Below, in pieces: positions 3,589-57,600 of a stretch of 64,000 nucleotides of DNA (within the stretch, counting starts at the first letter, position 1; each line of letters opens with the position of its first letter). Made by a program: the position numbers and the translations under genes. Origin of the DNA: Astropecten irregularis (taxonomy: Eukaryota; Echinodermata; Asteroidea; Paxillosida; Astropectinidae); assembly GCA_963971285.1 (NCBI GenBank), contig OZ020244.1, forward strand, positions 21,514,001-21,578,000, given 5' to 3'. The notes under the pieces are model-generated. The model had not been told where the DNA came from, did not search any database, and was given only the letters and a program-made list of their open reading frames with translations.

Positions 3589-3823
3589 GGTGGCTCTTGA
3601 ATGCTTAGCCAGCTTGCAGCTTCAGGAATTCATCCAGCACCTGCAAGGATTTGAAAATTGATTCAATGACTTGGACACGGATTTGTATTCAGGTTGAGGT
3701 ACCAGTTGGTGGATTTAAAGAGTTCCATAAATGGAATCAAGTCACTAGACTGACTACATGGACTTAGGCCATCTCCCAAATCAAAAGTCTACACAATGAG
3801 AGCAGACACTAGACCATATTATC

Positions 3824-5457: not shown

Positions 5458-8400
5458 GCTACTTTAAAAACTCTCTTGTGTTCTCCTGTACTTTCCAATT
5501 TTAAAAGAAGAATGTTTCATGCCACAGGTTCAGTGTTGATTTGTCAAAATTGGAACTTTTCTGGATGTCAGCAAATGAGGCGGATGATGCATTGTTGCTA
5601 TGGAGATTCTAAAGCAGACCCATCTTTGGTTTCCGAGTTAACCAGTCAAAATCACTTGAGTTTGTTGAAGTTTACAAGATGCCATCATTTACCAAACCAG
5701 CTCATCAGAAGTTTTCCAGCTTATCCATTTTCCACATCGGCAAGTATCTGTGCTGATGAGGACAAAGAGGGCTGCATCCCACCCAGGAATGACACAACCA
5801 CCCCTGTTTTGGATGGACCAACCTTATCTGAATGTGGCTCCCCACAGGCTGCTGTGAGGTGGTGGAGCGCAGCATTTTCTTCGAGGGGTGTTCCAGGGGC
5901 ACAAGTGTCGGCAGAGTTTCTTGTGGCTCATGCTCTGGGATTGAAACAGGTTAATATCAACTAACTAAAAAGCTTTTAGTATGTTGCACTATGAAGTTTA
6001 TTTTGTGGACCTCAGGAAATCATATGGGTCCTAGCATTGCAATACTGCTGTTATTTTGTTATTTTGACGGCTTGACTTCACTTTCATCCACAGCTGCATG
6101 AGTTGACAAATCAAGTCCTCTCTAGTCCTTTGACCCAATCACAGCTTGCTTTGATCAACAAACTCTGCTGCAGAAGACAAGAAAGGTGCGTCAGTTGTTA
6201 TTTTATGTGTGTTATCTGCTGCCATGCGCGGTATGCACCCAGGTTCGAATCCCTCTCAGGCTGACATGGAGTAAGTTTTCACTCTCTCATCTGATTCACA
6301 GCGAGAACTATGACCCAGACATGTTGGATAATTGAGAATTACTCACAGCTGAGACAAAGACAAGAGAGACAGTCCTAGTCCCAGCAAGTCAGTTTTGGAA
6401 GTTTGAAAGCTTTGGAGATTTAGTTTACAAATAGCTTAATTAATTATGCCACAGGAAACATACAATCAAATATCCACCTTCAAACCTTGTTAATGTTTGT
6501 TATAAAACTCTGTCTATTTAAGATGTTAGTAGCTTGGCTAAAATTTGATAACCATCTTAACAGAATCCTTCGTTCTGCACATTTTAGGATCCCAGTGCAG
6601 TACATTCTTGGTGATTGGGATTTCAGGGACATAACGTTGATTGTTCGACCGCCTGTCTTCATCCCAAGACCAGAAACTGAGGTTAGAAAACAATTTTTCA
6701 TCTCGATTGTTTTGGGAAAAGGGCAGTTCCGTAATTCTGTCAACCAAATGGTCAAAATTCAAAAATTGTTGAAATACTTTAATTTTAAATCATATTGAAG
6801 GTCAAAGCATCTAGTTTCTTATAATTATATGCGTTTTTATCAAACATTCATGTTTTCTCATTTTGTAGGCTGTAATGACTCAAAATGAGTCAAAATACCA
6901 ATTTTTTGAGCAAAAAGTACATTTAAGATTTTTGTTGCGGATGTACACTCCCAAAACTTCCAAGTTCAATGACCTTGCTCAGAGTCTTCTTTTTATTTCA
7001 AACAAATAAAGTTTACATTTTTTGAAAGGTGGTAACTGAGTGTCTCTGTTTGATATGTCTTTACTTTCCACCCCCTATTCAGTATTTAGAAATGATGTCA
7101 TTTTATCGTTGCGGACGTACAAATTGAATATTTTCACAGTGCACATCCGCAACGTACATCCGCAACAATGAACATTGAGAAATTCTAACCTGAAGGTAAA
7201 GGTTGAGGTTAATTTCTCTGCTGGTTTTCTTTAGTTTCTTTTCTCTTCCAAACAAAACTCTATCAGTTTCGATCAAAGGTCTGTACACTTCAGAGCAATT
7301 GTGATGAAAACGCAAGCACATGAAAAGTACACTTTCTGTGAATACGTCCGCAACGGGGGTGTTTTTGTGATGTGCTGCGCAAACCGAGAATGGGATTGGA
7401 ATAAAATGTTCAGGTTTTATACTTCTATCAGAGATACTTAAAATACAACTGCTCAAAATCCAAAAGCCTCAATAAATCTGAAGTTCTGGGTTCTCAAATT
7501 CTCTGAAATGCACATTCGCAACTACAGAACTGCCCAAAAGTGGCAACTACTCGCATATGATTACACATCGGAGTTCATAAATGCCCAAATTTGCTGCTGC
7601 CAATTCTGGAGCAAACTTTTATAAAGATCCTTAAACTTTTTTTTCTGTCTCAGATGCTTGTTGACATCGCAATAGGACACTACCCAGAGGACAAGAAACT
7701 TCATTTTTTGGAGGTTGGCTGCGGAAGTGGTGCCATATCCATCTCGGTTCTCATGGAGTTGCCCTTGGTATGTCCTGTAACACCTAGCCAGGCTACATCT
7801 ATTATAAGAAGATTCTCAACTTTTAGGGAGAGTTGATGTTGACAAGTTTTTAAATAAACTGTTTGTGGAAGCTGGAGGCCGGGCGCAGTCAGGTGGACAG
7901 AAATTGAGCATTTGAGCTGCCTGCATTAGTATAACTATTTGTTTGAAGACAACACCTGACCTTGTGGTCATCTTGTGAGGAACGGGCCATTCTGGTCCAA
8001 CCTAGATTAAAGCCTATAATGTGCATAATTGTGTCACCTCAACAGAAAAATAGGCTAATTTAAAGGACCAGCTTAATCTAGTTATTGGTAATTAGTAATA
8101 AGTAATTACTAGCAATAACTAGATTAAGCTGGTCCTTTAAATGGTTATCTTTGTATTGTTTGTAGGCCCAGTTGACTTGCATTGATCGCAGTGAAGAGGC
8201 TGTACAACTGACAATGGAGAATGCAAGAAGGTAATAATTGTAGATGTGACACAGCCACATATTGTATCTGTTCTTTTGGGGTTTTCATTGAGGAGTTTCT
8301 TAGGCGAATCTAACAAAATTTGACATAACAATTGACTGGAATGGGATTGGGGGGGGGGGGGGCCTGGGGGCACGTGCCCCCCCACAAATTCTGCGTGCCC

Positions 8401-16795: not shown

Positions 16796-19700
16796 TCACT
16801 GTCCGGCACTTGTGGCTATCGTGATCTGTGCATTGTAATCTGTTGTCTCCATCCTCAGGATGTACGGGATGATGCTGTCGATCTGAACGTTACCGATCAG
16901 GCCGGCAAAGAAGAGCTCTTCCATGATACCCGGGTTGAGCAGGCGCAGGGCAGGTAGGCGGAGGAGGAGCTTGCCGTAGCGGTCGGGGTCGTTAGGGTAG
17001 GTCTTGGCCTCGTACGCCCTCAGCTCGCTGATGGCCTTGTCCTGAAACCGCTCAATCTGTCTGGGGTTAGTCAGGCCTGGGTGGTCTGCAATAGAGACAT
17101 TGAAAGATTGTAATGTCTTACCTGCCCAAAATGTCTTTGTGACGAGTTGACTAGACCTTTTATTAAAGGGGCACCATTCATGCCAGGTACACTGAGGCAC
17201 CTGTCTTTGTTTACTTCACTTCGTGTATTGGACTCATGTGAAATACATCATTAGACACTCCGGCTGCAACATCCATTACCTTGACCTGATAGTTTTAAGT
17301 CACATGATCTTATTTTTCTAAATGCAGCAACGAAAAAAAAAAAGGATTTCACGAAATCTTCTTCACAGTATATTAGTCATATTCATGTTTTGATGTTACA
17401 AGAACTTGGTCATCTTTCAGCCTGTGTGAAAGCAATTTGATGAAAACAGGTTTGAAGATCCAAACTATCTCAATGATTTACCTTTCTTATGTATACATTA
17501 TGTATCATACTATTGCTTCCAATATTAAGTCAGTTTCCTTGATTTTTTAAACAAAGTTCAATTTCACACAAGACATGACCTGGTTTTGCTTTTCAACCAA
17601 AGAGGTTTTTCTTTAACTTGAGCTACGTGACTCAAGACAAGAAATGAGATGGAATTCAGACCAACACCAGAAAGAAAAGCTGCTATGATTTCGGACATGG
17701 GGTGCATTGTCTTCTGCATCAAGCATTTCTTATTTTACCTGGGCTGAAAAGGACGGCAGCCTTAAGGTAGGCAAACTCAGAGGAATCCACCTGCAACTTG
17801 GTGGTGACCGACACAAACTCCTGCAGCTTCCAAATGTGCTCCATGACTGCTTTGACCCTGTCTGCAGAAAGCTTGTCTGGAAAGAACGGGCAGAATGGGT
17901 TTATGGAACTGGGGCCTCATGGGTTAGCAGACACGGGCCCCATCATACGGACACAGTTGAAATCCCTTCAAGATTCAGTAAGGCACTAGTATCTAACATC
18001 TAACTGTATTCCTGTGAAATCTGGTCACATAGATGGAAAGTCAAATGTGGTAATGTTTCTGAGAACACGCTCATGCTGCAACATCATTATTTGTGTGTGT
18101 GGTGTGATTTAATAAATGGAGCTGATTGATCATAGTAATTCTCAACCTCTTTGCTTCTCAGTTCCTTGTTAACATTTGTCAAACTGATCAAGTCCACTGT
18201 CACGATAATGTGACAAACTACTGTGGCTAATAGCAGTGTGGTATGTCCTACTTCCTTCACATGAGAGCTCACAGGAAGTCAACACTGCCTCGATCGGATG
18301 CTGGATATGCCACTAGCCATTGTCAACTGTGCCGACTAGGAAGAGTGGTATTATGGTAAGATGGGCCAGTTTGAGGCTTAAACTACAAACCCAAGGCTTG
18401 TCAGGTACAAATCAATTTGAAAGATTTTGAGGGTTTAATTTTCATGAGGTTTTCCGGTCCATAAGCTTTGAAGTACTGTGTAATCATATTTCCTCTGTGG
18501 CCATTAAGAAGAAAAATGACAGCCCGGAAAGAATTTGAATCTGCAAGTACTGCTCTTCTAGTGCGGATAAAGTGTGACCATTTTAAACACTGAGCTAGCC
18601 ATAACACATTTGAATGGTAGCAGTTAACATACTATTTTCTATAGATGTTAAGATGCATTCAATGCTACATGGATAGGTAGGAGTGAGCAACACCACCCAG
18701 TCGATAATTTTTCTTTTAAAATGTTGCAGCATGTAATTTGATAAGATTCAAATGATCACCAAAAGGCTGTTACATGGATTAAAGCTGATGGATTCTGCAA
18801 TGTGTTTCACAGGGGGTGAAATTACGTTAGAAGCCTAGCAACTAGCATTGCAATTACTAAGAGTGTAGTGATAAACAGTTTTAAAACTTTTATATTGCCT
18901 GGTGGAAAATTTATAAAATTTGACAGCTTTTCCCAGCCTTGTCATTTCTAAAAAATCTATGTCTGTTGTCTTGAGATCCTGAATTAGTTCAGAGGAAGGA
19001 ATGTACACTGCATGAAAACAGCTTGTATGATTACAAACTTAAGAAAATGGAGACGAACTATAAGAGAAGAAAACAGGATGCCAAGAAAAACATGAAACGC
19101 CTTGATCAACAGACACATTGTAATAATGTTCTTCTGAAGGGGGAAAGGTATCAGAGTATAGGAAACAATGGTGAACTACATGTAATTACCTAATTGTCTA
19201 TTTAAACATGCATTACTTCATTAAAATTCATATTCAAAACATTGTCAGTCATGATTGAATTTACCTTGTGCATTACAGAGACATACTAGCCAGGAATAAA
19301 AAGAAGGTCAGCAGCTTGTTTGAGCAAAGATAAATTCAATCATGCGTTAGAGAAGGATTAGCTTCTGCAGTGATGTGGTGAGCATGCTCTTTTTTTTTTG
19401 TCCGTCGGAGTTTTGAATAGTTCAACATCAACAAAAATAGGAGAGAGAAAAATGGAACAAACTGCAACTGTATCATGCCAACATATATCCAAGGTCTGCT
19501 TTTGTACTTTTGTAGCATACCAGATATTTATTGAATGTTATTGTACGCCTCCGAGTACAGTGGGATACTAATGGATCTTTCTCCTCTTGTGAACACTGAA
19601 ATCAGCGTAAAATTTGCATTCTTTTAGGGGTAATTTTGGGCACCTGATAAAAACCTCAAACCTTCTTCACTTGGCTGGACATCACAAGATCAAGACGGTA

Positions 19701-22700
19701 AACTGTGTCATTTCTCAAACAGTCAGCAAAGGCAAAGTGATTTTTCAACTAACAATCTCCTTACCCACTCTCTTACAATGGCACTTTCCTGTGGCATGGA
19801 TGCGATTTAGCAGAATTTGACAAGGTTTTTTTTATCTCATTTCCAGGGTAGCATTCTTTTAAAGTCTACCATTGCGCAGACTGGCTTAAAATTCATGGAC
19901 GTTGATATGAAAACATTAAATGGTTAAGACTCTCGTTGAGGCAATGCCTTCATGCCCATGGTCAATGCCTAAGTGTCCCCGGCCAATATCACCCGATAGC
20001 AATAAAGTTAATTCATAAGTGGCCGCAGTCATTGCCTCGTTGTCATTCAATGTAATGGATGGAATGAAGGTGACTGCCTCAGTGCCCTTCATCATGTTGA
20101 CACTGCCCTCCACGACCTATGAAACTGATTCCCATAGTCATTGCCTTTGGGCCCCTTCAAATGATCCAGTAGAAATTTCAGTTTCTATTTACACAGTGGT
20201 GCCATGAGCCAAAGAAAAATTACCTTGCCCCTTAAAGAAAAAACAAGGACCTGATAAAGATTTCCATTCTTTTTTCTTCAATTAAAAAAAAAGATAATGA
20301 AAATGGATTCTGTACAAGACATGCTTCATGTCTTTAAAAACTTTTTTAATTTTGACAGGGCACAAGGCAAAAGATTTTGTTTCATGATGCACCTAATCTT
20401 ACCATGCCTTTTGAGATGACGTATTGAAAACATGTATCAATCTCTTTCTGCTTTTCATAATAAGATGGTTTAAAATGTGCCTTTCATGATTCATGCATTG
20501 AACATTTTAAATTATTGTAGTTTTTGTTCATAGGAATGGATACATACTTGTGTATATATTCTTAAAGCAATTAATTTCTTAAGTGGTTAAGATAATGTAT
20601 TCTGAATTGGGAAGGCATTAAATGATACATGCTTGAAGCTAGAATGTAATTCCGTACACAATATCTTCTTTAACAGACCCAACAGAGCTGTAGTAAAGAT
20701 GGTTTGAGGTTTTCTCAGAGCCACAGAGAGCCTGCTCTATTGAGGCTTTGCTGAATGGCCGAGGAAATTAGTATTGCAGATATGATTTGTGGGAGTAAAT
20801 ATTCCGACTAGAATCTAGGATGATATGAGGCATGCACATAAATATTCATGAATTGAGGGGGCGGGAGGGGAGACAGGAAAAAACAGCATGCACGTCAGTT
20901 CGGATTGGTCCAATTTCAATGTTGGGAGGGGGGAAAAACAAACAAAACGAAAATACTCGGAATTTTTTTTTGTCACCGAGGGACAAAAAATGTCATCCTG
21001 CAGAAGCTACCTTGCTCAAGGGGCACGGCACACAAATTTGCTGCGGTACCTTGCTGCAGACTGGTCTGAAGGTGGTTGACGATCGCCGTCAGGATGGTGG
21101 AGAGCGCCATCGTCTGGGAACACTGGGCCAGGCCTAAAGTGAACAGCTCACTCCAGCACTTTTGGACCATCGTCACGTTGGATTCAGGACTGCAGGGTGA
21201 AAAGGGTCAAGACTGAGTGATTGGCCTGTTGTCCTGAATACAATTCCAAAGGCAGCACATTGCTTTTTATTTTGATAACAACATGACTATCAACCCATCT
21301 AGATTTCTCTTGTGAAATGTTCATTTAAGGAGGCACAAGGACAGCATCATAGCTCTACCAATTCTCATAGCTCTGCACTTACCCAAGTAGCTGGAAGGCC
21401 TGGATGTTTCTGGCCCAGTGCATAGACAGGAATAAGAGCCTGGACGCTGACTCACAGATGTAGTGGACATTGAGAAATTGTGGCATGGGAGACGGGGTGG
21501 TCAGCTTGAACTGCATGTGGGACTCGTTCAGCATGTTGCCCTCGATCTTGATGTACTGCTGCTCCCCAGTGCCACCCTGGCTGCCGCCGCCGTTAGCTTG
21601 GTCCGACAAACTGGAGAGGGGAACACATTACGGTCATTCTCAATGATGTTCTCAATTAAGGAATTAAAAAGTTGTGATCTTCACACACACATCTCTTCAT
21701 CAAGCCTTGGTTGTTAAAATTTCACCGGTGCTCACCGACTGTAAAATATCACCCCAGAGATTCACTTTGATTCAATTACAACTTTTGAAAATGAAAAAAA
21801 GGGAAGAATATTTTAACCAAGGTAATAAAGTAAACCATTCAGATTTCTAGGTCATGCATTTTGTAATTCACAACCATCAGAGCTAAGTGCACAATAAAGA
21901 GAATTTAATAGTATTGACATTACACCCCTGACTAAAAGGTCACCCAAGATCCCGGTTGCAGGCTTCAAAGAGACATACATTATTCAAAGGGGATGTAACA
22001 AAAGTATGACCAACCTGATTTCAAGTGCTGAGGTGCCGTCTCCACCCTCCCCTCCGGGTGCCAGCGCCTTGGCAAGAGTATCAAAGGCTTTTGAGATCTG
22101 GTTTGGTGTTTGGTTGATTCCCTGCTGAACTGATGTCTCCCCATTCGATACCATCTAGCCACACACACAAGGAAGGAAAGACAAGAATTCTTTTAGACAT
22201 TCTGCTTTCAACTTGGTTCATGTGTATCAGTGAGAGTGTGTTTGTGTAGGACACTGGGGGGGGGGGTACAAGTAGACAACACAGCAAGCATACAGCAAGT
22301 CTTCTTTACTCCTTACAAGTACAATGTGTGCACTACTGTGATGTTGGGTAATGATAAAATACAAAGGATGCATATATGTGACTGCCTGAGTGGATGTTGA
22401 GGACAGATTGAATTTTTGTTTTTTCCAATTCAGGAAAGGCTGCAAAACAGACTAATTGAGAAATCTTCAATCTTTCCTTTCCTAACAACGTAACATACCA
22501 CAATACCTATTTACAATGTTGACTTGGAATGTTAGATAGATTTCATTGATAGAAATGTTAAGCACACAAATCTGCTAAACACAAATAAGAATTACAATAG
22601 CAAACAAAGAAATTACCAAATTTAAACAAAACTAATGTTTGCAAGTTGTCATTATAACCAAGCAATATCTTCAGCTAAAGCAAGTCCTATGAGACCAGTT

Positions 22701-25700
22701 TCTGATAGCTGATGAAGGTGCTTACCGTCTGGCCATCGCCCATCTGTCCAGCCTCACCGGCCTTGTTCATATTGGCCAACGACGTGACTACACTGGCCAA
22801 TGTGCTCAGGTCGGTAGTGGTGTCTGTGGATACTGCCTGCGAAACCATTGTGGGGGTCTGTACATTGAGCAGGAGGCCCTCCTCAAACAGTTTGGTCTTC
22901 TGCATGGGGTAGGTTGGACTTCTGTCTGCAGCTGTTGGAAAGGAAATGAGGTGGACCTGTTAACTTGCTGACAGCCAACAAGCCTACAAACTTAATACAC
23001 AGACAATATGCAGTGGTATTGGAAACGAATTTTTCTGGCAATGTTGATGATCCAACTTCTGTCATTGGCCACAAACGAAGTTACAGGATTCATTCCTACA
23101 TCACGCCAAAAAATGGTTGTAAATGTACAATTGTTTGTGGTGAGGCATATGGAGATTGTGTACAAGTAAAGGCTGAAATTCAATTTCTTCTATATAGTGG
23201 AACGCCACTGTAACAAACACCCCTATACTGAACATTTGGCTATACTGAACATCATCCTTGACTCCCAATTTTTGTGTACAATACGTACCGAATATGGTTC
23301 TTTAATTCACTATAATGAACAACCACTATAACAGACAAAATTTGTGCATCCCGCCATATTCGTTATAGCAGTGTTCCATAGTACTAATAAAAAAGCTCTT
23401 CTAAAAAAAATTCTTACTTCTATTCTATGACCAGTGTAATGTCCATTTGCACCTTCAGCTCCACAAAGCATCTCCTTATTTAAACCCATTAATCTAACCA
23501 CTGAGACACAAACCTTGTTGAGGCCGCATTTTCCACAACAAATTTCAATGGGTTTTGTGTAATGTTACCGCAACAGGAAAGTTATGTCATATGCATCTGT
23601 TCAATAAGTTAGTCGTAATTTGTGCTGGTCACAAAGCAAGTTTCACTTGCAAATTATTTTTCCAACTATCTCCCAGCATTAAACAACAGCATAGGAAAAT
23701 GTGATAAGAGTACAGTGCACACCAATGATTTTTTGCAAGAAAAGCTATTTTTTAACAGAACTAGAGAAAGCAGACACCAATTAGTTGGCCCACAGCAAAA
23801 AGTTTTTCTAGTTATTCTGGTGCTCCATGGACACTTGTGCAATTAGAAACACTTCACAAAAGTAAGGGAAATACCAGATCTGGTTAATTCAACATTTATG
23901 GCTGAGGATCCCAATCATTTTATTGGAGTCATTTACTTCTCATTAGACCATTCTGATTTCTTGACATATTAAATAATTTGAATTGGCCCCATGTAAGATT
24001 TAGTTCTACTTTCAGCCAATAAATTCAATCTGAATTGCAATTTAACGTATGGACTGGTTATCAGGTGTTTATATGAGAAAATGAATACACTAGGTCTGGG
24101 CGATAAGTGCTTTTCACTAATCGATTAATCGCTGAGGAACTAATCGCGATTAATCGATTAATCGCGATTACCCGGAAGTGACTATACAAGCAGCACATAC
24201 CTTGTTTTCATCATAGCGACACTGCAGTAAGCTGCACTAGCGTAATGCATTGATTCTTACAAGTTTAAACAGCGATCAGTTCCGATTTCCCAGGCATTGA
24301 GCAATGCCATTTTTGTTCTGATATTAAAGGTATAATGCAAAATTCGTGAAGCTAATATCATCCATAATTATTGGTATTCCTTCAGAAAAGTAGGGTAATT
24401 TTGCGAAGTGTTGGCCGACAAGGCATGCAGTAATTACTGCCTCACGTACGTACACCCAGACGTGGTCCCATACATGCATGTACAGGTCAATGATAGTACA
24501 CGATGACACATTATGTACACCCCATGTAGGCTGAACAGTGAACACGATTATTACACAGTTCACGATTACTGAACAGTGAACACGATTATTATACAGTTCA
24601 CGATTACTAAACACACCGCGATTATTTTACATTTCACGATTACTCCACATGTTCTAGGTACGGTGTGCGTGTTCACATTACACTGTGTACGTCCTGCATG
24701 ATATCCAACATGCGGGGACGCGACCGCGGTACATATACACCCTCGACCCCTTTGACGGGCGGATGGACAAAACACGAATGTCTAACGACTCGTCATCAAG
24801 TCTATGCAGCTGCTCCATGCAACACACACGGCATGATCGACTGAGAATAGTACAGTCAAACCTGTCTATAAAGACCGCTCAAGGGAAACGAGAAAAGTGG
24901 TCTTTATAGACAGGTGGTCTTTATAGACAGGTTGGCAATATTTGACCACCCGATGTGTATATTGAGTCGAATAAACCTATACTGTACCGTAATATAGCGA
25001 CCACTGCATGCGTTATGTCACCAATGAAGTGATTAAATTGCTTTAGATTTTTGTTTATTGCTTTAAATACAGTTTGTAAATTTGTAAAACTTAAATAGGC
25101 CCTAGGCCTATTTTATTATTAAGGAATTTAAATATTTTTTTATAAGAAGACTACAGCCCACTATGTATACTGCCTACTGTATTGTACATGATCATGTACC
25201 AATGTGAAGCACAGTGACCAAAAATAATTGTGGGGGCCATGTATTTTTTTTTTTTTTACCTGGGAATGTCAGTTTTGGAATTGTCCATGAGAATCAGCTA
25301 CGCTGCCGCAGCGCATTACCAGCACAAGTCATGCACTGCTCACGACCGTCTGGTCTTCCCAGCGGTGACATCGCATTCCCGATCCCATGTAGGCTCTCGG
25401 CGATCGCACGACACCACAGCTCATCCTTTCTCGTCGTACGGTCGTACATTTTAAATTTTTAACCACCTCCATTTTCGGGTCCCGCGGAAGGTGTAAAGAA
25501 AAAACATCCTTAGCCATGTTCTTTCTTCTTTTCCGACTGTAGTGATGGAACAAAGTCGCTTAAGAATCGGCAAAGCGAATACGTAAACTTCCATTGTAAC
25601 GCAACGATGTGTATAAAACCGGCATGCACATGACACAGCATGCATGCACTTCCGGACTCGATAGTATGCGCACGCGCAGTAGCCAGACATCTGACAGTTC

Positions 25701-28700
25701 ATCGCAGTGTTCTAAAATGGAAGACTTTTGTTTGCAATTTTAAAATTCAATTGAACAAAATCTAATTTAACAAAATATGACCTGTTTATAAAAAAGTTTT
25801 ATAAATCACAACGTGTTGTGATTTTTTTTAAACCTTATTTATTTCATTTATTAAACGATTACAATAATGAACGAGGCTACTGAAGGCCAAAGTTCATGCA
25901 TAATGTAGACCTGTCGAAATGGTTTGCATGTTCGTTGTATACATGTGCACGCATCGCGCTACCGGTACCGCGTTCAGAAGTTATGCTTGAAGAAGTCGAG
26001 TCTAGTGAGTAGTGAATGCGAACACGAACAATAGCGTCATGTTTAATCTAACCGCAGATTGAGGATATCTTGGTCGTTGATTTACTAATCTCTTAAATGC
26101 TTTTTGGGGCTTTGAGAAAGAACACAAGTTTTGTAACACATTTTCAATGGTCGTTAATTGTTTTTTGCATGACTCAAGTTGTTGCGGTCGTTCTATACAG
26201 GCTTCAGCGACCGCACGGGTGCAGAAATGGGTGGTCGCTGGTCGCGTTAGACAGTTGGTCGCTATACACAGTATACAAACTACAGGTTTTTTCACAGGGG
26301 CGTTTTTAAGTGGTCGTTATGGGCAGGTGGCCGTTATACACAGGTGGTCGCTAAGGCAGGTTTGACTGTAGTAACTCATGGAATTAATCGCAACTCGAAG
26401 GCACTAATCGCGCTGGCACGATTAATCGAGTAGTTCAGAATTTACTAATCGAGTAATCGACACAGGAATGCAATCGCGATTAATCGATTAATCGAGTTAA
26501 TCGCCCAGGCCTAGAATACACATCAATGCACCACAGCTTGGATAAGCAGAAGAATAGTCAAGATACATCTAAAGCGATTTGCAGTTGACGTCAATAAACA
26601 ACTGTCAATATTGCCAGGCAACATGTACCTGTAATGAATGTTGGCGTGGCCGCCAGTGGACTCCGAATGTCCTTCCGGATGTAGATCTTCTCTGTGGATG
26701 CGGCACAATTACCTGGTGACTTCTCTCCACGAGCTTTGAGCGGTGTCCTTTCACACTGCACTACTGGGGGAAGGAAGAGTCCCAAGAAAGTGACCAATTT
26801 TCAAAAAGGGCTGCAAACTCAAAATTCTTCTTGCCACTGTTACTTTTTGACTTGTCAATGTCTTTTCTTTCCTTGCCGCCACAATTATGCCTGTATACAA
26901 GCTAATGACTACTTATTTGTACTGGCCCATCTTTGAAGATCTTAGCATTGTTCACATGATGATTAATAAGACAGAACCATTCTGCTTTGCACCAATGACT
27001 TGATGCAATCTTCAAGAATTGTAGATCCTTGCAGAGGACATGTGACAAAGGAGTTAAACTGCCAACATACATTTGGACATATGTTGACTTGAATTCATGA
27101 TGTACAATCCACCTATTAAATTGCAGTTGCAAAGGCTATTCTATCAACAAACAACGGTGGGTCCGTTCTTTGAGAGTTACAAAAGGTCAAAGGGAACCAC
27201 CTGCGGGCATTCCAGCCTAACATCTTGGCTACTCACATTCCGATTTCATACCGACGAGGATGCACTTCTGCAGCCGACAGAACTGGCACCGGTTGCGATG
27301 GTGCTTGTTAATTGGACAGTCCTTGTTCCCGCGGCAACTGTAGCCGAGGCTCTTTCGGATGCTCCGTTTGAAGAATCCCTTGCAGCCTTCACAGCTGATG
27401 GCTCCATAATGGCGACCTGGAAAGCAAATTCAAGTTCAAGTTAGTAGGAATAAATTTTGAATAGCTAACAAAAATCATATACATATACACGAATCACATG
27501 GAATTCTGAACGGATATCAGTTTTTGCCAATGACAAAAAAAACAGAAGAAAAAACTGGGCTTAGCTGGTATGCTTCTTTGTTCTGCTAACAGCTTAAAGA
27601 AACTGCTTCCTTGTCTACAGATAAAAACATTGATGACCAAATACCCACCAGATGCATTGTCTCCACACACCATGCATGGTTCAATGGGGCGTTGCTGTGG
27701 CTTGCGATCAACACCCATTGTCTTGAGCGCCATCTCATCAATGGTAGCTTGGGGGTCCACCTTGACCAGTTGTTCCACTGTGTGCTGGTTGATTTGCACC
27801 TGTTGAACCTGTTGGGCAATGCATATACTGAGAATTTATCTCCTGCACAGTCTCTAAGTAGACTGCTGTCCAATTTTCCAAACACAAAGCATATAAATGA
27901 AATGAAGCCCAGAGTAAAACTGAACTACTGAATCTCAAACCGATGCTTCAACCAACCCTAGTCCTGCTGTTATTGCATTAGCCTGGCAGAATGCACCTGC
28001 AGTAAAAATGTTGTACCATTTAGCAGTCTACACAACCAGGTCTCCTGATCTGATCAGTAGGTTGCATGTAGCTAGCTTAGCTGTTGGTAAACATCTGGAC
28101 CAGTTCCACAGTACCTAAGCTGCTGTGTACATTTTAGTTCACTTTACTCCTGTTTTCTGTCATGTCTGTTGCATTTCTCAAGGTACATATTTGGTACCAA
28201 GGATGGCAGGTGTTCTTGGAAGAATTCTGAGAAAATACGACCTGGGGATTAGGTTTGAAAGGTCCATTTTTCTCCAGGGATCATATTTTCAGGGAATACA
28301 TCTGCATCAACTCCTAGGTGGAATTTACCTTGTATGTGTCGATTTGTACAGGATGACCAGGTATGTGTCCCACAGAATGACCCTGTGCCACTACATGAGT
28401 GGGCATTTTCACAACCTGTTGGACTGTTCCAGCCGGCATCTGTTGGACTATGTGTTGAACAAACTGCGGTGACACCTGAAGAAATGACCAAAAAGAACAA
28501 AGTTTTTGAGGATTTAAGTCGCACTGTCCATAATATTGTCTCATTTGTGAATGACTATAGATTTGAATGGTGAATCTGATGGTGAGGCTTGCAGGGTAGC
28601 GTGTAAAATATCTCTCTTTGTAAGCAGTGGAGATTCTTAGAACCAGAGGTTTCAACTAGACATATTGGCTTGTATATGTCAAGTTATGTTCAGGAGCCCC

Positions 28701-31700
28701 CCCCCCCCCAAAAAAAAAAACCCTTTCTTTTTTTAAGAGCTGTTTCCATCATGTCCATACACAAAAGAGATTTCAATGATTTTGCTTTTTAAGTGAAAGA
28801 GAAATATAATTGCCATCAAAAGGATTTTTGCGGAATGCGAGGGCTCACTTTACTTCCTTCCTGGCCCAAGTAGGATTTTTCATCAACAAGAACAACAAAC
28901 GTTTAACAGGACATTACCTGATGGACCTCTTGTACTTCTTGTATCTGGTTGGCTTGGGAAACCTGTGCAATTACAGACAAGCAAACAAACAATTCAAACA
29001 ACAAATTCTGCTTGAATGTAATTAATTCCACAGCTCCAGGTGCAAGAGAAACAAATGAATAAATTTGTAGATGTCAATGTTCACATTCAACGTTTGATAT
29101 AATGTGAAATACCGGTACAAATAAATAATATAATATAAATCAGTGCATATGTAAAACAATTTTCCAATTTCTTCTTATAAGGGATGTTGATTTTCTGCTA
29201 AAACAGAAAATGGATGAAATTAACAGCATTACCCTTCTAAAAACACCCAGCATTACTCTTTTGAAAAAAACCCCACAGCATTACCATTTTGTAAAAGAAT
29301 AAACCTTTAAAAACTAAAAGCAATGAATCAATTATTATGCACTTAAAAGAGAACACAAACAGTGAGTGGGATGAAAGTATTCACAAAAGTCATCAAAATT
29401 CAAGCACATGTTTGAAGTACTTTGGTCGATCTTCTAGCAAAATTCTGTAAAACGTGTCTGAAAATTTATGTGAAAAAGAGAAAAAAAATTCACTTTAAAA
29501 AACAATAATTCATAGATTAACACTTAAAATATTCTGTTGAATACTGGTAAGCTATTTCACCTTTTTTTCAGCATTGGTTCAAATGGACTAAATGTCACGG
29601 ATCTGTTTGTATCATTTTTATATGCTAAGCAAAGACAAGCTGAGAGGAAATCAAAAGCAGTCAGCTTACAAATTATTCTGGATTGTAACTTAACAAATTT
29701 ATACTGTAAGGAATTGGGTCAAGTATTTCTTAAGGTTTAAATGCGTAAGTCAAGAGGTTACCATACCTGTTCAATAACATGCTGGACTTCTTGACTGCTT
29801 GTCTGAGGGACCTATTTTATGCAAAACAAAAAAGACAAATGTCTAGGTCCCTTTACATACATCAGAATACAGACTGCCAACCTTTCACACAAATACATGT
29901 AGCTCATGAATGAACGACTTGCTTAGAAAAAGACAATTCTGCAATCTCTGTGTAGTTTCTCTGCTTTCATTGTAGCGAAGTGCTGTGAGTTTGTCTGTGA
30001 TGTGACAGTAGTTTCTGCCGTTAGGTCAATGTCATTTGAGGGTACAGTGTATGTAACAGGAAAGGATTTACATGCAAAATATCAGCCTCTCAGATGTGCC
30101 ACAGATTTTGCCAACTTAAAACAGCTAAATCATAGTTTATTTCAAGGTTTGGGTTTGTAGGCTTAATGCATTTCCATTTATGACGCAAAATAATAAATTA
30201 TAAAAAAGCGCTTATCTATTTGATTTCTGCAAAGAAATGTTGGCAATGTCGAGCATGTTCTGACTTAAGTAACTCCTCACTAAATTGTCTTTCCTTTGTA
30301 AAATAAAAAAATGTTTTCCTTTCAATTGTTTAGAGTTATTTGATTCTTCAAACTATCTCTGTGGGCCCGGTTAGCACTTCGTATTATTGAGATTTTTTTT
30401 CAATCTACGGTAATACAAATGAATCAAATGAGCTGGAGTGGTAATGCACTGCAAAACCCCTTCAAGCCTTGAAGCATTCCTTGCTTGTTAATACTTGAGA
30501 ATAAGTTTGTCCTAATATTACCTACTCATACATTCTATAATATGTTAGAAAAATAAATAACTGTTATTTGCAAATTTTGGTCATTTTGGGGAAACCTTCA
30601 TTGGAAATTTGTGTAGTACGTGTATCATACAGATAAGATAGTATACAAATTACTTAATAAGAACTGGGGGTTTTGTTCACAAAATAGTAGAAAATGTTCA
30701 AATATTAAACACCATGTGTCTGTAACTCTGTATGTGTCGTGCATTTCCACAATGTATCAAAATGTTCCCTACAAATAAAAACTGTAACCTTAACATCAAA
30801 CATGATGGGTATGCCCATAAAAGACAAGGACAGAAATTACTTCCATACTGTCCATGGACAGTCTTCTGATATTCATCACCAGTTTTGCAGAACAAAAAAT
30901 TTTCTGTGAGGTTATCTAAAAATATTTCTATGCATTTTTCACCCCCGTATATGTATACGACCTGAACATGAGCTGTGATATGAGCCTCTGCTTAAATGTT
31001 TTCAGTGACCTTGGCAAACAAGGGTGCATGTAATTATTGAATTTCATTTGTTAAATGGAAATTCCCAATGCAACATAAACAAACTGAATGTCCATGCATC
31101 CCAGCAGTAATCTCCCTAAGTGTCAGCATCCTGTTCTACACCTTTCAGCTGGTACATTACATACATACTGTATGTACATGTATGTGTACATGCAGTTATC
31201 ATTCCTTGATTATGAAAATATGTAATGACTTCAGTATTAATTTTCTGTCAAAAGTCCTACAGTATTATTTTTCTCATACTAAATGCTTCTGATTTACATA
31301 CATCCTGTCAGCTTGAATCAATATTTTCGTTTGCAATAAACACGTTTCTCGAAGCAGACAGCATATTGCCATAGTGATAACAGATTATGTTGAGTATTGG
31401 TTCACTACACCATTATCTCCCATGCAATGCCATTAGTGGCTCATTTTTATTGCATGACAGAGGCAGCGTGTATGTTAATATGCACATGGGATGTACAGTG
31501 AAACCTAGATAATTAACTGTACATAATTTCCACTGTAATAGGTCATCTCTCTACTGCACGCTTGGCCTCTTTTCAAAGTAGCTTTTTTTGTAATTTCTAT
31601 GAAAAAAAAAATCAGTCATTTTTAACGTTCTTCCTTCAAACTGAGCTAAACACAATATCTGCCTAAACGTTTGAAGTTTTTCTTCTCCTTAATCGGTTAT

Positions 31701-33762
31701 ATCTGTGTTTGGGCAACTTTCAAATGGATCTTTTTTTAATTAATTTTTATCATGTACATGTACATGTTTGTTAAAATGAATTCCCAGGCCTTTTGAAAAC
31801 AGCCTTCATCTTGGGGCGCTTAATTTGTTTATTTTCACTTTAATTCATCATTTAAATAATGTGTGGGTTTTGGGTTTGTTTGTTTTTAAATGGGGAGAAT
31901 AAACGTCGATAGTGGAATGAAAGACACACACCATTGTAAACAAGTCTGATTGGAAAATATGTAAATTAAGTAGCTCAGGGGCTTTCATCTCACTTACATG
32001 TTCCATGTACATGACTTCTTGAAGCTGATTCTCATGAGGGATCTTGAGATGGGAAACACAGATACATCATTATGTTCATTGCAATTACATGTATGGCATA
32101 AAGGCAAGTCATGCTCAGTCAGTAGTTAGACATTGTTAATAATGCTGCACGGTCAATTAAGGTTTACAAAAGAAAAAAACAAGATGAAAAAAGGAATGAC
32201 AAGCCGAGGAGGTTAAAGCATGTGACTGTGAAACCAAAAGGACGTATCTAAGGCTTTTTCACCTTGTACACTGTCTGTGAATTCATAGAATGTCCTCAGT
32301 ATAACTGAATGGCAGCAGTGAGTCAGTTCCTTCAGGTCTTTTAATGTTGGCTGAGAGAAGGTGAATTCATGTCCCAGGTGTGTTATAAAGAAAACATCAA
32401 GTTTGGCACAATGTCATGGTAAAGGTATGCAGCAAGTTACTGTTATCCCATCAACTAATTTTGCGATAAGCTAATAGAGATGTGCTATCAGTTGACAGTA
32501 TGACTTAAATGTAAAATCTCCAAATGATTTCTTTTTAATGTTTCCATTACCTCTTGATGGATGACGTACATGTACATGTATGGATACATACAGGGCTCGA
32601 ATTTCGTGAAAAAAAGAGCATAATTGAAGCAAAAAAGTAATTGAATAATTTTACTAGACCTGAACTTTTTTCACTAGACCAGTGGCATTGCATAGGAAAA
32701 CCATAATTGTATTCAATATTGTGTCAAAAATCATCAATTTAGGCAACATTTTAATTGTGCAAGGAAAACAAAATTACTAGACAGCCGGACTAGTGCAGTA
32801 AACACTTTACTAGACAAAGACAGAAATCACTAGACTCGGTCCAAGGTCTAGTGGATATTTCGAGCCCTGACATATGAAATACATTTCCCAAAAGGATTTC
32901 TAGTGCACACATATATCTGCTGTAAGGTCCATGTAGAAACGTTAGTTGCAATTAATGACATGATAATTATTGCTGGCCATGTATGCAGGTAAAGTAAACC
33001 TGGGGCTGATTTCACTAATGCTTTGCGATCATCGTTAAGCCCAAATCCATCCCTAAACGGAAAATTGCTACTCAAAGTAGCGATCGATTTTCCGTTTAGC
33101 GATGGATTTGGGCTTTACGATGGTCGCAAAGCGTTAGTGAAATCGGCCCCTGCTCTCAGGGTTGGTGACATTAGAAGCCAACACAGCAAGTCTTGTTCCA
33201 CGGCTGGCTGACAGATGCTTGTGCCTCATTCATCAATGGCTTGTAGTCTTTTTGAACTAATCATTTTTGCATGAATTTATTTTGGGGGCTTAGTCAACAT
33301 AGCAAACATTTACATTTAGGTTCCTCCTAATTGTTCCTTAGTCCCTTTATTTGGTACTGAATGGATTCACAAGCTTTTTGTGAGCTTAAATGAAATATTG
33401 CAATTTTTGGGGCTTGTGAAAACAGAAATACACCCTGGAGGATCAGATTAGATAGATGGATTAGTGGATAAATGGGCTATATACCACCACCAACACTGTG
33501 GGCAATGGCTTGATTAAATATGTTGACACTGCACAACCCAAAACAAATGTGGACACTTTTACTGTCTGGCTGAAAGTGAAAGTCATGAGAACACCATGGT
33601 GTGAAGTGGTTAAAGAATGTGTTAAAACAGAATGAAGAATAACTCTGCAAGTGCATGGTCTGTCCTTACCTCCTCTGTTACTGTTTCTTGTATTATCTGA
33701 TGGTCAACAACCTCCATGACCGGTTCTTCTTCTACCTCTTGACTGACTTGGGTGCTGTCCAT
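16796..33762 (-). CDS. NR2C2: NR2C (TR2/TR4-type) orphan nuclear receptor
   Basis: Fourteen coding exons on the minus strand: 33762-33670, 32042-31998, 29811-29767, 28962-28918, 28475-28329, 27808-27649, 27416-27237, 26763-26629, 22925-22726, 22154-22015, 21610-21383, 21189-21050, 17861-17739, 17085-16796. Phases agree at every junction, giving 656 residues. Order: acidic/Gln-rich N-terminus (1-165), two-zinc-finger DNA-binding domain (about 170-235), hinge with [13 protein letters not shown], and ligand-binding domain from about 430 to the end. The DNA-binding and ligand-binding regions match vertebrate NR2C1 and NR2C2 nearly residue for residue over long blocks. NR2C proteins bind AGGTCA direct repeats in the nucleus as homo- or heterodimers. 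An invertebrate TR2/4 gene predates the vertebrate split, so the symbol means NR2C1/2. The start ATG has A at -3 and G at +4. The gene converges with HEMK1 and diverges from EOGT. Confidence 0.95.
17862..21049. other. NR2C intron (3.2 kb), no gene seen
   Basis: Only the degenerate motif array at 19915-20200 stands out. The rest is AT-rich without a convincing frame. Confidence 0.5.
19915..20200. repeat. Degenerate tandem motif, GTCATTGCCTYAGTG
   Basis: Four or more loose copies (near 19960, 20030, 20070 and 20138) of a motif like GTCATTGCCTCAGTGCCC, in a locally GC-richer patch of an NR2C intron. Spacing is uneven. No coding frame is convincing. Confidence 0.4.
23195..23380. mobile_element. 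Mariner-like MITE (TATAGTGGAAC ends)
   Basis: The left end TATAGTGGAACGCCACTGTAA faces an inverted right end (GTTATAGCAGTGTTCCATA), with internal CTATACTGAAC and CTATAATGAAC repeats. TA at the ends suggests Tc1/mariner. It lies in an NR2C intron. Confidence 0.55.
24533..24644. repeat. 38-bp tandem repeat, three copies
   Basis: Units at 24533-24570, 24571-24608 and 24609-24644 (36 nt, diverged), each with ACACGATTATT and TTCACGATTACT. It lies inside the hAT-like element. Confidence 0.8.
24853..26368. mobile_element. Nested 1.5-kb element, CAGTCAAACCTG ends, TA duplication
   Basis: Ends CAGTCAAACCTG and inverted CAGGTTTGACTG, flanked by TA (24851-24852, 26369-26370). Subterminal arrays of GTGGTCTTTATAGACAGG (left) and GGTGGTCGCTATACACAG variants (right). 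TA duplication is typical of Tc1/mariner-type elements. No transposase seen. It inserted into the hAT-like element, so it is the younger of the two. Confidence 0.75.
27237..27808 (-). other. NR2C DNA-binding domain exons
   Basis: Exon 27808-27649 ends in the first zinc finger ([10 protein letters not shown]) and exon 27416-27237 continues [18 protein letters not shown] through the second finger to CRLQKC. All eight zinc-binding cysteines are present. The P-box is CEGCKG, the type that reads AGGTCA half-sites. The intron splits the Gly codon of ASGRHYGA. An Asn occupies residue 176 where NR2C proteins usually have Lys (CGDKASG). Confidence 0.93.
29812..31997. other. NR2C intron (2.2 kb), no gene seen
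   Basis: AT-rich, with a TACATGTATGTGTACATG cluster near 31165-31190 and 31745-31765. No exon-like or structured element detected. Confidence 0.5.
32591..32869 (+). mobile_element. 279-bp TIR element (CAGGGCTCGAA), 5-bp duplication, copy 1
   Basis: Ends CAGGGCTCGAA and inverted CGAGCCCTG; ACATA on both sides (32586-32590, 32870-32874). The interior has repeated CTAGAC/ACTAGAC motifs. 80% or more similar by eye to 39912-40191 in the opposite orientation. Superfamily not assigned. Confidence 0.8.
33003..33149. mobile_element. Palindromic MITE, GATTTCAC family, copy c (CTG duplication)
   Basis: 147 bp, GGGCTGATTTCACTAATGC to the inverted GCGTTAGTGAAATCGGCCC, flanked by CTG at 33000-33002 and 33150-33152. 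Nearly identical in its centre to copy a. It lies in the first coding intron of NR2C. Confidence 0.8.
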
Positions 33763-46471: not shown

Positions 46472-47505
46472 GTCAACTCGCCCCCTAGCCGAATCGCCCC
46501 TTACCGACTCGCCCCTTACCAACTCGCCCCCTCCCCGACTCGCCCCCTGACCGACTCGCCCCTTACCAACTCGCCTCCTCCCCGACTCGCCCCCTCCCCG
46601 ACTCGCCCCCTCCCCAACTCGCCCCCTCCCCAACTTGCCCCCTAATTTACTCAGAAATGAGATACAAAATGTGAAGTTAATTAGGCATCATAATTAATAA
46701 CCAAATGCTTCTGACCCTTTTGTAGGGCCTACTATGTGTCTATGTCAAACATTTTATGATTGAGAACGAAAGATGCACAAAGACCACACACAAACTCCTG
46801 CACGGTTTGATTGCAGTTCAAGCAATTTAATGTTTCCTTCGCAGAACCAAAAACATCAAAATTTAAAAAACGCAACCTCAAAACAAGAAAAACAAGTGAA
46901 CAACAACACTTAAAACAAACCATAGAACAAAACATCGTCATAATAAAAAGAAGTCTACAAAAAATGTCAACAATAACACTTGAAGTTAAAGCAAGACATT
47001 TTAAAACAAAATGATAACAAAATATGTTCAAAATATGTTCAGAAAGAACATCGAATAATAAAACAAAAAAATTGTTATTTTATCTCAAAGAGTCACAAAA
47101 ACTCAAAAACATCGTCATAAGGACAAAAACACAAAATTTTGGGGAGGGGGTGAGTCGGTAAGGGGCGAGAGTCGGCTAGGGGGCGAGTTGACCTGTTTCC
47201 CTCAGAACATCAGTCACAAGACTGATTCCTTCCCTCACAAGATGTTAGACCCAGTCCCCCCCCCCTCCCAATAGGGAGTGATGGACTCGCCCCTTACCAT
47301 GTGGCCCCCTGATCGACTCAACCTTGAGTTAGGGTGCATTCGTTTAGCTTCCTCGGGTCAGCCCTTATTGGGAATGGTCGTGTTATACTGCACAAAACAA
47401 GCGAGAGAATGGTGATGAGGTTGACTAGTGTCGACCCGGGGGAGCTAAACGAATGCACCCTTGGTAAGGGGCGATTTGGCTAGGAGCCTGGTGAGTTGAC
47501 CTGAT
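46472..47505. mobile_element. Fold-back element built on ACTCGCCCC minisatellite arms
   Basis: GTCAACTCGCCCCCTAGCCG (46472-46491) opens a run of 15-16-bp ACTCGCCCCNTNCC units to about 46640. The inverse, GGCTAGGGGGCGAGTTGACC, closes near 47193. Another inverse-like end lies at 47463-47505. The centre (46740-47140) is strongly A-rich on the plus strand and codes for nothing I recognise. A separate 129-bp element sits inside at 47332-47460. Confidence 0.6.
47332..47460. mobile_element. 129-bp MITE, GGGTGCATTCGTTTAGCT ends
   Basis: GGGTGCATTCGTTTAGCTTCC and its inverse GGAGCTAAACGAATGCACCC bound the element almost perfectly. Flanks TTGAGTTA and TTGGTAAG may be a decayed 8-bp duplication (hAT-like). 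Inserted in ACTCGCCCC repeat sequence. Confidence 0.65.
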
Positions 47506-54600: not shown

Positions 54601-57600
54601 GAGAGCAAACTGCTGTAAAATGCTTATCAAGTGAAATGACCTGTACATGTAATATATTTTCTTTTAAACTGTTAAATCCAAAAGTCAAGTCAGTTGTCTG
54701 TTTCGATATACTAGCCACTATATCAAGCCAGTTTTTGATTTCACCAAACTCGCTGTAACTTACTATCAATCGTATATGACATTTGATGCATTGTAGCCCT
54801 GCGTAGGATACGATGGGTTATCCTTCGAACCTGAAGTCACGATCAATCGCAGTATAGGACTTTGTGAAATCGACTCCAGATCTTACTTTGGAAAGCAAAA
54901 TGACCAAAAAAACCTAAAATGCCAAATGAAATGATGGCAAACAGCTTTTTGAAGCAGTCGTGTCAAGTGCTGCTTTTGAAGCGAAAATGTAACCTTTGTT
55001 TTACACAAGATTTTTTTGGGAAGAACAAGTCAAATGTTTTTATCATTTGTAATGTCAGATTTGTTCCACTTTTTGACATGTGTACATGTATTTGTAAGGG
55101 ACTGTGTGTAGCTCTTCCTTGTAGATAGATAAGTCAAGTTTCCCCATGAATCTTGAGTTGAACAGAATACCTGTGTAATAATATTCTCCTTTTTGTACAT
55201 TAGGCCTATAGTTGCTTATTTTAAAACCGCCATTTTGGCAGATACATGTATGTATGAAGAAAGACGAGCCCAACCTAGCTTTGGAAATGATCCCCTTATA
55301 GAACCTTCTTATATGCCCCCAAACCTGAATGGTTGACCTGTATATTGTTTGTCTGTCTCACGGTGCAGTTGAAAAAGCAAATTAACTTACCTTTTTATGT
55401 ATAGGTCTGTTTTTCATGATTGCAGGGCCTAGTCCTAGCATCTCTGTAGTTGAGATTGATTTTGTTAATCCACTTGGGATTATGATATTGATATTTTGAA
55501 ACCAGTTATTTGATCCATCTCATAATATTATTTAAATCCAATTTTGGTTTATAATACAGAATGGCTCATCGCTGTCGTGCACCAACAACCTCAACGCCTG
55601 CAAAGCCAAGCATTTCCTCTTGGATCTGACCAACTTAGGGCTCCCGTCAACTTACCGGGGAAGGTAAATATCTGTACAGCTGAGGCTAGAGCTGTGGCTA
55701 GAGCTGAGGCTAGAGCTGAGGCTAGAGCTGAGGCTACAGCTTGGGCTAGAGCTTGGGCTAGAGCTGTGGTTACAGCTGGGGCTAACGCTGAGGCTACAGT
55801 TGAGGCTAAAGCTCGGGCTACAGCTGAGGCTAAAGCTCGGGCTACAGTTGAGGCTAAAGCTGAGGCTAAAGCTCGGCCTACAGCTGAGGCTAAAGCTCGG
55901 CCTACAGCTGAGGCTAAAGCTCGGCCTACAGCTGAGGCTAAATTCGGGCTAAAGCTCGGGCTAGAGCTGAGGCTTAAGTTTGGGCTACAGCTGAGATAGC
56001 TCGGGCTACAACTTAGGCTGTAGGTTTGCAAATTTGGTTATTTTATTTTCTTGCTTACTAGCGGGAAACTGCAGTGCAGTGTACACCTGTAGTGTACATT
56101 GCATGGTGATTTTGGTTGGCAATATTCAAAATCCAGTGTTAAGGCACTATAAGCACGTATCATTGTGCTCTAGACAACCAAGCTACATGTACAAAGCTAC
56201 ATGTACATGTAAGGTTAAAATGTAAATCACTTATTTCCCTGTCTGCGGTCATTTTTTACTCATATTTTCACGAGTGTTTTTGATCAAATGATGGCAGTGT
56301 AAAAACTGAGTGTAAAGATTACAATTTGTCATACAGTAATTTTTTTGAGCAAAGTTTGAAACCTTTTCCTAAAAACCCCAACACAAATCTATCTCTCATG
56401 GCATGTGCACAGATTAATGGAGAGAGGGATGAAAAGATTCGCTGTAGCAATAAAGTTATAAAACATTTTATGGATCTGAAAGGACCAAGGTTGTTGCATT
56501 AGCCACAGTTGGCTGATTTTTTTTTTTACCAAGGTGTGTCATTTTTTTTATGATCAGTATGCCAACCAAATCCATTTATGAATGTTATGCTTTAGCATGA
56601 ACAATGACCGAATACAAGTCAAAAGTAGTAAACATCACATGAACATTTGGTCGGCAATCCTGTTTGAACAAGGAAGACTTTTCATGCTTAAAGAGTGGCC
56701 GCAATGGGTGTTTTTTGCTTATATATTGATATGATATGAATATAAAGTCTTTAAAACGCAGTTGTGTGGCTGTCGTAGTTTTAGCCTCCCTTGTGTTGGT
56801 GTTAAAATCATTTTATTAACTGGGAGGGTGGAAAGTCGTGACATCATCTCGGGAACCGGCTAGCTGGTTCACAAGCCATCGAGTAATGCTAAGCTGGTTC
56901 CCGCGTCACTGACGGCAATCAAAATCCCGTACTAGGGGGTGGGGTGTGGACACAAAATACTAATGGGGTGCGGTCTATTTCGAGAAAACAAAAAAAAAAC
57001 CAGATGCGGGGGAAAACAATAAACAAACTTTAATGAAATTTAATATATTTTAAAAAAGTTTATTAAATTATTTTGATGGATTTTATTAAATATCATTGCA
57101 GCCAGCCACCCTTTAATCAAATGTTGTACTTACATTATAAGCAGCTCTATGGTAGCTCTAATTGGCCTCAGGTTACTTGGTGTATCAGAAAGCAGTTATC
57201 ATAGTTGGTGCACCATAGTCCATGATTCAGACAACCTGTACATTTTCCTTTGAAGAACTGTATGTATGTTCAAGTGACTTCCCCAAGTGACCGCCATCAG
57301 AACATTAAAGCTGCTTTGAGGGATTCAAATCATGGACTTCTGCATCCAAGTGCAATGGTCTTCTTTTTCTCCTGGCACCTAGATGTATATCATTTGGTTT
57401 TTGTTCAGGCTTGACGTGGACTATTTTGAAACACCTGGACAAGTTGGCGGCCATTGTAATGTTGACAAAGCACTGCTGAAAAAACATTCTTCACAATTCG
57501 CCTCCCTTCAATCTTGGTAAGTGAAGGTTTTTTGACATGACAAAGAAACAGGTAGAAATTTGAAATTTAAATGTATAATACATGATTGGAAATAGTCACA

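Follow-up and report, generated by a model that had tools for sequence, protein, structure and literature searches.

Three similar 45-nucleotide exons in the N-terminal region of an NR2C-type nuclear receptor gene of the sea star Astropecten irregularis, and their possible origin by old tandem duplication

Three consecutive exons, each of 45 nt, lie in the N-terminal region of a nuclear receptor gene on the minus strand of the window, i.e. the 64-kb stretch of Astropecten irregularis DNA that was analysed. The 15-residue units that they encode, here termed A, B and C, resemble one another beyond what their composition accounts for and, judging from their sequences, the likeliest origin of the three exons, on balance, is an old tandem duplication of a single ancestral 15-residue exon. 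The array is probably a new instance of tandem exon duplication, itself a known process.

The gene is, from the domains that it encodes, an NR2C (TR2/TR4-type) nuclear receptor gene. Its DNA-binding domain, encoded by exons E6 and E7, gives a zf-C4 profile match over the cut-off (E = 8.4e-32), and among the best 60 of its 88 PDB matches the top three are NR2C2 (129.6-130.6 bits), with COUP-TF1 as the next-best receptor (110.1 bits). A Hormone_recep (ligand-binding domain) match (E = 3e-11) is located at 16796-17215, in the last gene block, and tblastn with approximate human TR2 and TR4 queries gives TR2/TR4-like blocks that reach the C terminus. The gene call made in a preliminary description of this DNA is therefore upheld, the DNA-binding domain being closest to solved NR2C2 and ligand-domain exons being present downstream. 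In its C4 DNA-binding domain and ligand-domain exons the sea-star gene is like the vertebrate NR2C receptors TR2 (NR2C1) and TR4 (NR2C2); SpSHR2 is presumably the sea-urchin receptor of the NR2C kind. The features of the gene, from its start, are as follows.

33670..33762, minus strand: start exon E1, 93 nt, phase 0 at its end, 31 residues, from a scan for ATG, open frame, motif and donor
31998..32042, minus strand: unit A exon, 45 nt, phase 0-0, splice-score rank 3 of 172
29767..29811, minus strand: unit B exon, 45 nt, phase 0-0, splice-score rank 4 of 172
28918..28962, minus strand: unit C exon, 45 nt, phase 0-0, splice-score rank 2 of 172
28329..28475, minus strand: exon E5, 147 nt, phase 0-0, its first 12 residues resembling unit B
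27649..27808, minus strand: exon E6, 160 nt, phase 0 to 1, in which the DNA-binding domain begins
27237..27416, minus strand: exon E7, which completes the C4 zinc-finger DNA-binding domain, from the zf-C4 and PDB NR2C2 matches
16811..26761, minus strand: further NR2C exons, for the hinge and ligand-binding domain, as approximate tblastn blocks

From the gene start, the exon sizes are 93, 45, 45, 45, 147, 160 and 180 nt, the lengths of the first five all being multiples of three, with phase 0; the introns between E1, A, B, C, E5, E6 and E7 are of 1,627, 2,186, 804, 442, 520 and 232 nt, respectively. E1 was the single candidate returned by a scan for an ATG with an open frame, a [QE][QE][VI] motif and a donor score above 6, and an in-frame stop lies 7 codons upstream of its start. 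A palindrome of ~130 bp at about 33012-33142, in the intron before unit A, looks by eye like a small mobile element.

Units A, B and C are present on the minus strand at the coordinates given in the preliminary description, each being 45 nt long, in phase 0 at both ends, preceded by AG and followed by GT, such that length and phase are the same in all three of these neighbouring exons (3/3 of 45 nt, phase 0-0). By a simple splice-site score they occupy ranks 2, 3 and 4 among the 172 frame-open AG-45-GT candidates on both strands of the 64-kb window. The Gln-Glu-Val (QEV) motif is, as had been described, common to all three units, with the QEV core of unit B located one codon earlier than in the others.

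Ungapped identity between the units is low, at 2, 5 and 3 per 15 residues and 19, 24 and 20 per 45 bases. The claimed resemblance is nevertheless borne out for the three units taken together, since their summed similarity exceeds that of codon-order shuffles, in which the interior codons are permuted, leaving the composition and both terminal codons unchanged (amino acids, p = 0.00065; nucleotides, reached in 0/20,000 shuffles); a frame-respecting codon alignment gives a comparable picture (sum reached in 0/4,000; the three pairs at 0.005, 0.012 and 0.029). At the level of single pairs the codon shuffles give, for amino acids, p = 0.031 (A-B), 0.0019 (A-C) and 0.11 (B-C), so that B-C alone does not stand out, and, for nucleotides, p = 5e-5 (A-B), 0.0057 (A-C) and 0.031 (B-C). 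Among 30,000 pairs of decoy exons, the fractions reaching the unit nucleotide scores are 3.7e-4 (A-B), 8e-4 (B-C) and 1.3e-3 (A-C), though one of 169 decoys compared with unit A scores 6.0, above the nucleotide scores of B-C (5.5) and A-C. Which pair is closest depends on the measure, i.e. A-B by nucleotides and A-C by amino acids, and the best A-B nucleotide alignment requires frame-breaking gaps.

Related sequence was also sought outside the three exons. The preliminary description had proposed a related motif in the start exon; E1 does contain the letters QEV, yet its similarity to A, B and C lies within that of the shuffles (p = 0.92, 0.71 and 0.20), and its kinship with the units is not supported. 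Of nine tests, one matches the first 12 residues of E5 to unit B (p = 0.003) and another gives a weak match of unit B to the beginning of E6 (p = 0.04); in a core scan, which ranks units A, B and C first by construction, these two exon starts score 15.7 each, as compared with 18.3, 16.3 and 15.7 at unrelated places on the same strand. Within 34500-27200 that scan, which disregards splice sites, placed nothing above the E5 and E6 starts other than the units themselves and C read in shifted positions. A search of both strands of the window, in which 1,285 open AG...GT stretches were 36-54 nt long, yielded no fourth 45-nt unit or remnant. Vertebrate TR2/TR4 N-termini, again in approximate form, have no significant similarity to the sea-star N-terminal region, and were rejected as homologues of the units (p = 0.20 to 0.39).

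Because the units are symmetric (phase 0-0), each can be skipped or included without a frame shift. All eight inclusion patterns of A, B and C (8/8) read through to the DNA-binding domain with no stop, giving 193 to 238 residues over the part examined; the eight in-frame isoforms envisaged in the preliminary description are, as regards reading frame, possible. It is quite possible too, if just short of probable, that the units are three constitutive exons that are always included and so provide no isoform diversity, a reading that fits either origin of the units and is to be judged separately from it. The unit donors (scores 8.7, 9.2 and 7.2) resemble those of E5-E7 (7.7, 9.2 and 8.3; E1, 11.2) and the unit acceptors (5.4, 3.7 and 7.9) lie on either side of that of E6 (5.1), as would be expected of constitutive exons, but E5 (11.2) and E7 (9.9) have stronger acceptors than the units, and 45 nt is short. 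Weak acceptors and short length are both usual in cassette exons. Neither a second copy of the gene nor a spliced (intronless) retrocopy was found by DNA and protein searches of the genome (475.7 Mb in 168 contigs; the DNA search may miss repeats), the 7 matches to a joined 567-nt query and the 5 to a 125-residue protein all being to this locus, exon by exon.

The introns that flank the units were aligned for traces of duplication, a check that the preliminary description had suggested, and gave no robust homology. Twenty-four comparisons were made with flanks of 40-400 nt, using random intron segments as controls; 21 of these were at chance and three gave P < 0.05. One of the three involves the 40-nt upstream flanks of B and C (P = 0.018), both of which are pyrimidine-rich. 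The others involve the downstream flanks of A and B, with P = 0.013 at 200 nt and a score at 400 nt that none of the controls reached, and that was reached in 1/300 shuffles and 2/300 random triples. On retesting the A/B downstream flanks with four scoring schemes, two gave P = 0.002-0.09 and two gave 0.15-0.49; because this hint depends on the scoring scheme, it was not counted. In a blastn comparison of the region with itself, no pair reached E <= 0.01, whether or not low-complexity sequence was masked, and none of the 11 pairs at E <= 10 links two units or their matching flanks. Homology of flanking introns is diagnostic of exon duplication only when the duplication is recent. It follows from the lack of robust intron homology that the duplication, if it occurred, was old. 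The earlier proposal of repeated exon duplication is thus retained in part, as the better explanation of the similarity between the units, whereas the introns give it no robust support.

The absence of a robust duplication trace in the intron flanks is also in keeping with separate origins of the three exons, which would have become alike by convergence, through splice consensus at their ends, a purine-rich enhancer (CAAGAAGT) and their location in a Q/E/V-rich region. Convergence is a possible, though less likely, origin. In a phase-0 exon the splice consensus favours V as the first residue (ag|GT.) and Q as the last (CAG|gt). Convergence is a real rival in that the V...Q ends of the units fit this consensus and CAAGAAGT holds an enhancer-like hexamer. 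The hexamer, AAGAAG, is common to all three units and is a classic purine-rich exonic enhancer. Core hexamers of the GAAGAA type occur exactly once per unit, at the QE codons, and five times in E1, with none in E5-E7; elsewhere they occupy 2/1,216 positions in seven other gene blocks and 10/5,781 in introns. Codon choice points in a similar direction, with CAA accounting for 17/31 of the Gln codons in E1-E6 as opposed to 5/32 in the other blocks examined (Fisher p = 0.0015), and GAA for 11/18 of the Glu codons as opposed to 5/24 (Fisher p = 0.011). The codon usage of the N-terminal region gives a probability of 0.064 that all three units contain the core hexamer, but with that of the other blocks the probability is 1.2e-4. 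Enhancers, moreover, do not account for the identical 45-nt length of the three units, and the shuffles already preserve composition and terminal codons, yet the units remain similar. The similarity also persists when the QEV codons are removed (summed, nucleotides p = 0.0011, amino acids p = 0.012), mainly between A and B, the only significant nucleotide pair (8e-4; A-C 0.13, B-C 0.14).

Within the NR2C gene, Gln and Glu codons are preferentially CAA and GAA in 27650-33762 (E1-E6) and CAG and GAG in the 16811-27417 blocks examined. Selection on the recognition of short exons and a shared origin could each, or together, produce the pattern of CAA/GAA and hexamers.

That one or more of the units is a chance AG-45-GT stretch and no exon is very improbable: although 26 other open AG...GT stretches (30-90 nt, both strands of the window), some of which are perhaps true exons, score at least as high as the weakest unit, only four of the 29 stretches reaching that score are 45 nt long and three of these are A, B and C, which, by reason of position (one 3.1-kb stretch), strand, phase with the flanking exons and mutual similarity, are unlikely to be accidental.

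On the preferred reading of an old tandem duplication, the N-terminal (A/B) region of this NR2C receptor would be built from short phase-0 exons rich in Gln/Val, one ancestral 15-residue exon having given rise to the three units while its introns diverged past recognition. Each symmetric unit may be spliced in or skipped with the frame kept, the purine-rich CAAGAAGT core presumably aiding recognition of such short exons as a splicing enhancer. The result would be a putative modular Gln/Val-rich N-terminal segment, the length of which is set by the number of units and which might in this way vary in activation strength. A more far-reaching version, in which duplicated 15-residue mini-exons form an array confined to asteroids or echinoderms and enable combinatorial tuning of the NR2C N terminus, with eight proteins from three cassettes and dose-like control of activation by unit count, appears improbable.

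Series of short, fixed-length phase-0 exons have a precedent in the fibrillar collagens, in which symmetric exons of 45 or 54 nt are repeated and their size is set by Gly-X-Y triplets; no such Gly-X-Y constraint applies to the NR2C units. Tandem exon duplication is abundant in coding parts and in untranslated regions, according to PMC9013439, and the sea-star units fit this kind in that they lie next to one another, share length and phase and are related in sequence. They differ in that their ungapped nucleotide identity is 42-53%, the search described in that paper having found no pair below 57%, and also in the lack of robust intron homology and in unit B being one codon out of register. A further parallel is provided by CREM/CREB; exon 4 of mouse Crem encodes a Gln-rich activation domain and can be deleted without shifting the frame, and altered use of this exon has been reported (PMC3834821). 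The likeness is that of a frame-preserving exon for a Gln-rich activation segment; by contrast with CREM/CREB, the sea-star gene is of another protein family, its unit is of 15 residues and is repeated, and skipping of the unit is hypothetical. A literature search that covered few subscription papers turned up none that deals with repeated N-terminal exons of NR2C genes, and such a paper may exist; in the main text of PMC7827873, which treats TR2/4, the words 'isoform' and 'splice' are both absent.

Combinatorial splicing of the units, if it occurs, would offer a compact natural series in which the length of a Gln/Val-rich N-terminal segment can be related to how active an orphan nuclear receptor is. 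Otherwise the array would illustrate, on a small scale, that in short exons the effects of old duplication, of residues set by the splice consensus and of enhancer-like codons are hard to tell apart.

Several other features of the window were observed. Tandem arrays are present at 55678-55995 (36-base unit, 8.8 copies, with a 12-base sub-unit), where several frames are open on both strands, and at 46474-46644, where the array is C-rich (47-base unit, 3.6 copies). A tRNA-like stretch at 61255-61330 scores 43.1 bits with the Rfam tRNA model, ARAGORN giving it no amino acid and a two-base anticodon. Two open stretches at 6424-7836 on the plus strand, for neither of which Pfam gives a match at E <= 0.001, read by eye like a HemK-type methyltransferase. 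An open frame of 223 residues at 2950-3621 on the minus strand, with a Pfam match below the cut-off only, begins, as judged by eye, with a signal-like sequence and has a body rich in Thr, Ser and Pro as well as a segment that resembles a membrane span.

Elsewhere in the assembly, a contig of 16,335 bases is the mitochondrial genome; a family search placed cox1 on it, with 10 TGA codons that the standard code reads as stops. Under the echinoderm code the translations of this contig read as cox1-nad4L-cox2-atp6-cox3-nad3-nad4 on one strand and nad1 and nad2 on the opposite one, the gene names other than cox1 being a matter of judgement, and this order points to an echinoderm, most likely a sea star. 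A cox1 without TGA is located at C131:32162-33484, perhaps in a bacterial contig, and a cox1-like stretch with 7 TGA at C25:9951047-9952018 is perhaps a nuclear copy of mitochondrial DNA. Contigs C8, C15 and C16 carry many nuclear-receptor DNA-binding domains, the matches to which are interrupted at about profile position 25, as an intron at that point would cause; the presence of these domains on the three contigs suggests a local expansion of the family.
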